In this document: piece by piece, positions 31,707 to 34,292 of the stretch
How positions within the stretch are numbered: the stretch's first letter is position 1
How the letters are laid out: every line of letters starts with the position of its first letter
NCBI GenBank assembly: GCA_018666775.1
Contig: JABIXC010000007.1
Coordinates: forward strand, 1-64,000
DNA: 64,000 bases
Reading direction: 5' to 3'
Source: Rhodospirillales bacterium
Lineage (GTDB): Bacteria > Pseudomonadota > Alphaproteobacteria > SMXQ01
Position numbers and translations under genes: made by a program
Notes under the pieces: generated by a model
Told to the model about the DNA's origin: nothing
Seen by the model: the letters and a program-made list of their open reading frames with translations, nothing else
Database searches by the model: none

Positions 31707-32081
31707 TTAACCGGTGCTGGCCTGCTTTTTCAGAATCTCTTCTACCCGGTCCACCAATTCACGCAGATGGAAGGGTTTTGACAGAACTTTCGTGCCGCGC
31801 AATTCCTGATCGCGGCCGCGCAGCATAACGGCGGCAAACCCGGTGATAAACATCACCTGAAGCTCAGGATGGGAAATCCGGGCCCTGGCAGCCAGCTGGA
31901 AGCCATCAAGCGATGGCATCACAACATCTGCCACCAACAGATCAAATTGCACTGCCTTGGACGCTGATAACGCTTCCAAGCCATCTCCCACGGCGAACAC
32001 ATCATGGCCCGCCCGTTCCAGGGCTTTGGCTAAAAAGATGCGCATAGTGGCGTCGTCTTCAGCAAGAAGAATGCGGCTCAT
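31707..32081 (-). CDS. cpdR: Single-domain response regulator CpdR
   Basis: A 124-residue receiver domain without an output domain. MSRILLAEDDATMR carries the acidic pocket, Asp52 in LLVADVVMP is the phospho-acceptor, and Lys in KVLSKPFHLRELVDR completes the site. The FITGFAA stretch is characteristic of CpdR, which in Caulobacter is controlled by CckA-ChpT and acts as a ClpXP adaptor for cell-cycle proteolysis. Its presence supports an alphaproteobacterial host with CtrA-type cell-cycle control. AGGA lies upstream of the ATG. Confidence 0.9.
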   Translation of the reverse strand: MSRILLAEDDATMRIFLAKALERAGHDVFAVGDGLEALSASKAVQFDLLVADVVMPSLDGFQLAARARISHPELQVMFITGFAAVMLRGRDQELRGTKVLSKPFHLRELVDRVEEILKKQASTG

Positions 32082-32348: not shown

Positions 32349-33260
32349 ATGGTTAACCCGACCACACCCCTTATTGACCCCAAAAATGCCCCCGCTGCGT
32401 TGCTAGAAGATGGGGTTTTAGAGATTCTGCGCCCCCGGCAACAGACCTTGCCTGTGGTATTTGCCTCCCCCCACAGCGGCACGAATTACACCCCGGAATT
32501 TACCCAGGCATCGAAACTGGACAGCACCAGTTTGCGCAAATCTGAAGACAGTTTCGTCGATGAAATTTTTGCCGCAGCCCCCGGTCTCGGAGCCCCACTG
32601 CTGAAAGCCCTGTTCCCCCGCGCCTATATCGATCCCAACCGGGAACCCTTCGAGCTGGACCCGGAAATGTTCAAAGATCCTTTGCCCACATACGTCAATT
32701 GCCAGTCTGCCCGGGTCGCCGCCGGGCTTGGCACCATTGCCCGGGTCGTGGCCACGGGCTCTGATATTTACAAAGACAAGCTATTGTTCACGGAAGCCGC
32801 AGATCGCATCAACCGGCTTTACCGCCCCTATCACAAAGCCCTGCAAGGGCTTTTGGAAGAAACCCGGGCTGCCTTTGGCTGGTGCCTGTTAATTGATTGC
32901 CATTCCATGCCATCGGTCGGTGGGCCGATGGATCAAGACCCCGGGATTGGGCGCGTCGATTTTGTGCTCGGTGATTGTTACGGGGCAGCCTGCCACAGCA
33001 CCATTTCTGATCATGTGGAAACAATGCTGACATCTAGAAACCATTCTGTGACCCGCAATATTCCTTATTCCGGGGGCTATACCACCATGCATTATGGCCG
33101 CCCCGATGCCGGGGTTCATGCCCTGCAGATCGAAATCAATCGGGGGCTTTATATGGATGAAGATGCCTATACCCGAAGCGACGGTATGGCGGCACTGACA
33201 GAATCGCTGACCGCGTTGATTGGCTCTTTTCAGGATATAGCGCCCCCCACGGCTCCCTAA
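32349..33260 (+). CDS. N-formylglutamate amidohydrolase family protein
   Basis: A 303-residue protein of the N-formylglutamate amidohydrolase family, which releases glutamate and formate at the end of one histidine-degradation route. VVFASPHSGTNYTPEF, KSEDSFVDEIF, ALFPRAYIDPNREPFELDP and LIDCHSMPS are the family signatures. No other hut gene is in the window, so it may act on another N-acyl amino acid. The gap of 267 bases before it holds no other gene. Confidence 0.9.
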   Translation: MVNPTTPLIDPKNAPAALLEDGVLEILRPRQQTLPVVFASPHSGTNYTPEFTQASKLDSTSLRKSEDSFVDEIFAAAPGLGAPLLKALFPRAYIDPNREPFELDPEMFKDPLPTYVNCQSARVAAGLGTIARVVATGSDIYKDKLLFTEAADRINRLYRPYHKALQGLLEETRAAFGWCLLIDCHSMPSVGGPMDQDPGIGRVDFVLGDCYGAACHSTISDHVETMLTSRNHSVTRNIPYSGGYTTMHYGRPDAGVHALQIEINRGLYMDEDAYTRSDGMAALTESLTALIGSFQDIAPPTAP

Positions 33261-33304
33261 GCTGGCCCCAAAAGCCTGCGCAAGAAAAGCCGGCCCAAAA
33301 AAAT

Positions 33305-33402
33305 CGAAAAAAAAGGCCACGCCGTAGCGTGGCCTTAAGTATAGGGAGGAAACGCCCAAAAAGGGTGTCTGCGGTCCAAAGCCGTAAGGCCCGGCACCGC
33401 AA
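33305..33402 (-). ncRNA. Candidate trans-acting small RNA, MmgR/alpha-r8-like
   Basis: On the minus strand a TTGACA box (33431-33436) is followed by 17 bases and AATAGT, placing a start near 33402. The RNA would have a nested 5' stem GCGGT-GCCG/CGGC-ACCGC, a small ACACCC/GGGCGT hairpin, an unpaired TTTCCTCCCT, and then a perfect GGCCACGC/GCGTGGCC terminator with eight T residues. This order, including the single-stranded decamer, matches what I recall for the alphaproteobacterial MmgR (alpha-r8, Rfam suhB) family. No protein-coding gene on this strand uses the terminator. Expression is not shown. Confidence 0.65.
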
Positions 33403-33506
33403 TTACGACTATTCCATAAGTGCAAAATAGTGTCAAATGTTTTATATAAGACTTGAGTAATAATATTACGTGTCCCTTCTGGCTCAGGGATTGCATCGAG
33501 AATGCT

Positions 33507-34292
33507 ATGAAAGCCAACTTGCCAACCCCAATGTCTCTAAATTGCCGCCGCCTGTTGGCAGGAATGGCCCTGATTTTTGCCCTGGGCATGGGGTCAAATA
33601 CCGTCTGGGCGAGCACGGAAAATGCACTTCAACCCATTGAAGATAATAAGAATTTATGCATGCACGCCGTTGATCGTGCAGAGCAAAAACACAATATTCC
33701 CGGACAAATTCTAAGGGCCATTTCCCTTGCGGAATCGGGCCGATATGACCGCCTGCGCAAGGCAAGTTTTGCCTGGCCATGGACGGTTACATCGGGAAAG
33801 AACAGCCACTACCTGCCAAGCCGGGAAGCGGCCATCGCCAAGGTTAAAGAAATGCGGGCCCAAAATATTCGCAATATTGACGTTGGCTGCATGCAGGTGA
33901 ACCTTGGCTATCACCCCGATGCCTTTGCCAATCTGGATGAGGCTTTCAACCCCGAAACCAACGTTGCTTACGCCGCAGCGCATCTTGAAAAATTATACAT
34001 TGCACGCCATTCATGGACCCTTGCCGTTGGGTACTACCATTCAGCTACCAGGCGCTTGAATCGGTCTTATCGGCGAAAGATTATGGGATTGTGGTGTGTG
34101 GAACGCAGACGCGCCGCAGCGGCCGAGCGTCAACGGGTCATCAAGGTGGGCGCAGAACGGCGTCGAAAGAGCGTTGTGGCCTATGAAGCGCGCCAACGCA
34201 AACACCGCGCATTTATCAAAGCCAGAAAAATAAAAAGAGGGGCGGCCCAAAGAAGTGCCCGACGAAATACCCTAATCGTATCCAACCGCTAA
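33507..34292 (+). CDS. Lytic transglycosylase-like (SLT domain) exported protein
   Basis: A 261-residue protein with a Sec signal peptide (RRLLAGMALIFALGMGSN, likely cleaved after VWAS). The SLT fold shows the catalytic Glu in RAISLAESGRYD, then IDVGCMQVNLGYHPDAF and YAAAHLEKLY and a final VGYYHSA. The last 70 residues are extremely rich in Arg and Lys, unusual for the family and perhaps a wall- or nucleic-acid-binding tail. The frame is open from 33453, but the ATG at 33507 gives a better signal peptide. Its stop overlaps the MFS stop on the other strand. Confidence 0.8.
   Translation: MKANLPTPMSLNCRRLLAGMALIFALGMGSNTVWASTENALQPIEDNKNLCMHAVDRAEQKHNIPGQILRAISLAESGRYDRLRKASFAWPWTVTSGKNSHYLPSREAAIAKVKEMRAQNIRNIDVGCMQVNLGYHPDAFANLDEAFNPETNVAYAAAHLEKLYIARHSWTLAVGYYHSATRRLNRSYRRKIMGLWCVERRRAAAAERQRVIKVGAERRRKSVVAYEARQRKHRAFIKARKIKRGAAQRSARRNTLIVSNR

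Follow-up and report, generated by a model that had tools for sequence, protein, structure and literature searches.

A predicted FGase-linked alpha-r8 (MmgR/SisA-type) small RNA gene in a Rhodospirillales genome with no detectable PHB synthase or phasin

Our covariance-model and comparative analyses indicated that the minus strand of the analyzed DNA (a stretch of 64,000 nucleotides from a Rhodospirillales bacterium, hereafter the window) almost certainly carries a small RNA (sRNA) gene of the alpha-r8 family, of the MmgR/SisA type linked to N-formylglutamate amidohydrolase (FGase). Taken as a whole, the data are likely best explained by an alpha-r8 RNA that would act through Hfq-dependent, seed-pairing repression on a regulon consisting mainly of uptake and catabolic genes, and not on PHB storage.

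Identity and architecture of the minus-strand locus

The RF00519 covariance model (suhB, now annotated MmgR; alpha-r8) matched positions 33299-33373 of the minus strand at 61.5 bits (E-value over the window, 3.1e-10), 20 bits above the gathering score of 41 bits, with model positions 1-77 of 77 aligned; one tRNA was the only other Rfam hit in the 64 kb window. Agreement with the consensus was nearly base for base across GUUUCCUCCCUA-ACUU and the terminator. The alpha-r8/MmgR (suhB) assignment of the first-pass annotation, which had named this covariance search as its check, is thus upheld by an end-to-end match, and the decamer and the FGase neighbor agree with the published definition, in which the exact decamer core is common to all alpha-r8 RNAs and the vicinity of FGase is the hallmark of the standard copy (PMC12559287). 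Alongside the model score, the locus displays the exact decamer after a weak hairpin, a Rho-independent terminator, and an adjoining FGase gene. The window gene is a further member of a known family, with an ordinary and well-preserved architecture and position.

At a relaxed E-value, all other Rfam families remained under their cut-offs at this locus. The weak scores of BjrC1505 (RF02356; 27.2 bits, below its gathering score of 50), SorY (22.2 bits), and SorX (20.4 bits), which share a CCUCCCU seed and a strong terminator with the window RNA, might suggest that another anti-Shine-Dalgarno sRNA family (BjrC1505, SorX/SorY, or AbcR) merely resembles suhB here. This is barely credible, as those three scores lie far under their own thresholds, whereas RF00519 lies well above its own, and the exact decamer together with FGase synteny is specific to alpha-r8. 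AbcR1 and AbcR2 (alpha-r15) also have a CU-rich anti-Shine-Dalgarno motif, and their known targets are solute-binding protein mRNAs, the kind predicted here; however, they form a separate family of 114-120 nt with two such motifs and another genomic context (PMC7143759).

The promoter proposed earlier (TTGACA and an AT-rich -10 box), the terminator with eight T, and a predicted RNA of approximately 95 bases were all recovered on the minus strand (Table 1), and the 17-base spacing between TTGACA and AATAGT was kept in relatives as judged by eye. By themselves, such pattern matches were at chance level (promoter, 1 found versus 1.5 expected; terminator, 2 found versus 1.6 expected), so that the significance of the feature comes from the covariance hit. 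These counts leave room for a reading in which the inverted repeat and T run close another transcript and no independent sRNA exists, and a sub-threshold locus (L004) located 3′ of an apparent ribonucleotide reductase gene illustrates that a terminator with CUCCCU can reach 28 bits. Such a reading is very improbable given the full-length 61.5-bit match, its 5′ part included, the lack of an upstream minus-strand gene, the conserved promoter-like sequence, and the covarying 5′ hairpin. The earlier statement that no minus-strand protein gene could be served by this terminator also holds, with three overlapping open reading frames (178, 93, and 88 aa) taken as spurious: they are antisense to the conserved flanking plus-strand genes and overlap the sRNA.

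Table 1. Positions of the predicted sRNA gene, its signals, and its neighbors in the window
Feature	Position	Strand	Basis and remarks
CpdR-like response regulator	31707-32081	minus	PF00072; NCBIfam CpdR 153.9 bits, below the cut-off of 180; conserved second neighbor
N-formylglutamate amidohydrolase (FGase)	32349-33260	plus	PF05013, 4e-73; neighbor in many alpha-r8 loci
Predicted alpha-r8 sRNA, ~95 nt	33307-33401	minus	5′ end deduced from the -10 box, 3′ end placed at the U run
Intrinsic terminator with 8 U after a 10-bp stem; stem-loop 3 and probable Hfq end	33307-33336	minus	pattern match; stem 33336-33313, eight T 33314-33307
Seed decamer UUUCCUCCCU	33343-33352	minus	exact; CCUCCCU single-stranded in prediction
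Small hairpin around ACCCUUUUUGGGCGU, directly before the seed (stem-loop 2)	33351-33370	minus	fold and RF00519 alignment
5′ hairpin (stem-loop 1)	33370-33400	minus	beyond the Rfam model; fold prediction, covariation in relatives
-10 box AATAGT with extended TG	33408-33413	minus	pattern match; position kept in relatives
-35 box TTGACA	33431-33436	minus	pattern match; TTGA kept in relatives (by eye)
Upstream block TCTTATATAAAACATTTGA, running into the -35 box	33433-33451	minus	conserved in FGase-linked same-family copies
Lytic transglycosylase (SLT), opposite side	33516-34292	plus	PF01464, 1.4e-6; conserved in much of the family

The predicted fold of the RNA (-46.6 kcal/mol) was far more stable than that of shuffled sequences (-28.7 kcal/mol; z = -6.05), with none of the 200 shuffles being as stable. 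The nested 5′ hairpin noted in the first-pass annotation was found, and its outer 5-bp stem was paired in 8 of 8 family copies (5 distinct types), with two pairs altered on both sides in this small, hand-trimmed alignment. A review of rhizobial RNAs describes MmgR with three stem-loops (PMC7143759), and we therefore make no claim of novelty for the 5′ hairpin. The decamer, described earlier as unpaired, proved open in its larger part: in the predicted fold, positions 4-10 (CCUCCCU) were single-stranded with a probability of approximately 1, and the first two or three U were mostly paired.

Genomic neighborhood and upstream conservation

The sRNA gene sits between the FGase and lytic transglycosylase genes, with the CpdR-like regulator gene beyond FGase. 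Adjacency of alpha-r8 to FGase, often together with a response regulator and a transglycosylase, was seen again in relatives as well as in numerous named Alphaproteobacteria, whose loci were retrieved with the 17-mer GTTTCCTCCCTANACTT. Because the position next to FGase is the one published for alpha-r8, the window locus is most probably the standard copy, maintained by vertical descent. Among same-family relatives, the CpdR-like regulator shows 72-89% identity, which is above the 64-72% of FGase.

SisA of Caulobacter crescentus (PMC12559287) has in common with the window locus the decamer, the preceding hairpin, the intrinsic terminator, the FGase neighbor, and Hfq in the genome. The window RNA differs in its longer 5′ part, which places the decamer from approximately nucleotide 50, whereas residues 33-45 of SisA are those protected by the RNA CrfA.

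Upstream of the promoter, the 19-base block was almost unchanged by eye in six relatives' loci (L008, L010, L014, L021, L022, and L025) and weaker in a seventh (L026), and the DNA between this block with its -35 box and the TG-extended -10 box was variable and less conserved than the block. The block is a candidate UP element or dedicated operator. It was rejected as a regulon motif, as no second copy was found elsewhere in the genome within three mismatches.

Absence of detectable PHB genes

MmgR of Sinorhizobium is reportedly linked to the control of PHB storage, with PHB granules being limited through phasins. The first-pass annotation had pointed to this link, and an alpha-r8 RNA controlling PHB storage in the same manner would be in keeping with RF00519 membership and with a co-occurrence of alpha-r8 and PhaC above chance (21/31, 61 genomes; Fisher p = 0.01, uncorrected for genome size or relatedness). 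The link was not borne out here, as neither the PHB synthase (PhaC_N) nor phasin (Phasin_2) was detected by profile search in the 98%-complete genome assembly; the same PhaC search did give matches elsewhere, namely in Caulobacter and 31 of 61 genomes. PhaC was likewise not found in seven of the nine same-family genomes with an alpha-r8 copy over the cut-off. Given these two results, a PHB role like that of MmgR is very unlikely in this organism. The window RNA thus resembles MmgR of Sinorhizobium meliloti in its Rfam match, decamer, three stem-loops, and terminator, but MmgR is a 77-nt RNA that limits PHB granules through phasins, which are undetectable here along with the PHB synthase. The locus uncouples the family from PHB, the storage polymer behind its name, in that an organism with alpha-r8 and Hfq has no detectable PHB machinery, and since the genome lacks detectable PHB genes, alpha-r8 must do something else in it.

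Candidate targets and a possible role in nutrient uptake

In Caulobacter, SisA represses translation together with Hfq by pairing its decamer to ribosome-binding sites; repression of a TonB receptor mRNA via the decamer was proven by compensatory mutation, and the sponge CrfA relieves SisA repression upon carbon starvation (PMC12559287). An hfq gene is present in our genome (109 bits). By analogy with these homologues, Hfq would hold the window RNA, and its seed (CUCCCU) would pair with mRNAs at GGGAGG(AAA) ribosome-binding sites, thereby preventing their translation and favoring their decay. Trans-acting repression of this kind at ribosome-binding sites is probable.

The exact seed complement AGGGAGGAAA is found at three sites in the genome. 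One belongs to the sRNA gene, another lies within an rnpB-like RNA, and the third forms the ribosome-binding site (AGGGAGGAAAAAATG) of a TctC-like receptor. The rnpB-like site falls in a conserved RNase P segment and was set aside as a coincidence rather than a sponge. Beyond these three sites, no exact decamer complement that could serve as a CrfA-type sponge was found in the genome, which is a further difference from SisA. The pattern AGGGAGG-N2-10-ATG occurred 30 times in this genome compared with 4 times for the reversed control, an excess that mainly shows a real ribosome-binding motif.

Target classes were compared in a 400 kb stretch of the genome that served as the background, with gene starts called by a simple script. 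Among 30 genes with AGGGAG, 7 were TctC-like, compared with none of the 42 with AGGAG/GGAGG and 8 of the remaining 286 (Fisher p = 0.0014 for AGGGAG versus canonical sites and 6e-5 for AGGGAG versus all others). Across ten related genomes and this one, AGGGAGGAAA-N1-7-ATG was found 32 times, compared with once for the reversed pattern. After removal of a repeated short-ORF element in one genome (G006) and one further short ORF, 21 relatives' genes remained, of which eight encoded solute-binding proteins from unrelated families (TctC, SBP_bac, and DctP); most of the others coded for enzymes that were catabolic or otherwise acted on small molecules. When canonical sites were taken for comparison, AGGGAG sites no longer showed a clear general bias toward catabolism: the looser AGGGAG set includes housekeeping genes (Cpn60, SSB, Nuo, and cold-shock), and catabolic genes occur in the canonical set too, so that only the TctC excess is regarded as solid. 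From these target sites, the regulon would comprise mainly nutrient uptake and catabolism mRNAs, with tripartite tricarboxylate (TctC) transport receptors foremost, a proposal that we place just short of an even call.

TctC-like receptors are strongly expanded in this 2.4-Mb genome, with 46 matches (e.g., L189 and L197), and reach up to 108 in relatives (G006). The TctC genes are paralogues, and their ribosome-binding site may be common by descent. We therefore weighed a real seed-pairing sRNA whose targets are not chiefly uptake or catabolic genes, the TctC excess then reflecting shared leader ancestry, and we lean against this while taking it seriously. The size of the paralogous group and the AGGGAG sites at housekeeping genes agree with shared ancestry, as do the closest tctC orthologues (L190 and L191, in G001 and G005), in which the full complement was not found and AGGGAGA or a similar sequence stands instead. 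The purine run is, however, still common to TctC paralogues of only 35-55% protein identity, and unrelated binding-protein families (SBP_bac and DctP) carry the full complement in other genomes. The counts support a regulon of uptake genes without proving it, considering the possible shared leaders, the simple start calls, and the housekeeping genes in the AGGGAG set. TctC-type receptors are the best candidate targets, and this can be tested.

The window locus and SisA in Caulobacter together point to the control of uptake and catabolism as a shared alpha-r8 function. We tentatively suggest, at a little below even confidence, that alpha-r8, under a conserved promoter of its own, is retained in a PHB-free lineage to restrain, on a global scale, the expanded TctC receptors and other uptake genes. 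If so, the ancestral task of alpha-r8 would be the control of nutrient uptake, and PHB control would be a side effect in some hosts.

The sequence AGGGAGGAAATAATG was present in nine near-identical copies in G006 (L241, L254, L259, L261, L263, L265, and L266), several of them close to the beginning of a contig. A two-codon ORF comes after the sequence, which probably represents a repeated element.

Three weaker RF00519 hits (35.3, 30.8, and 28.5 bits) were found in the genome of the window, and none was accepted as a true alpha-r8 paralogue, as the exact decamer occurred in none of them. The L004 hit looks like a terminator behind the ribonucleotide reductase gene. L003 (1509-1641, minus strand; C18:41677-41768) is better fitted by BjrC1505 (RF02356; 51.5 bits, cut-off 50) with a CCUCCCUGUUAAACUU core, and this match has a GcrA-like gene within a few hundred bases of it. 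L002 (1501-1577, minus strand; C10:185515-185591) combines GCCUCCCUGUUAGACUU with a strong terminator, scores 35.3 bits for RF00519 and 31.8 bits for SorY, all below the cut-offs, and is a candidate sibling sRNA. These other seed-bearing sRNAs, L002 and L003, could also act on the sites described above.
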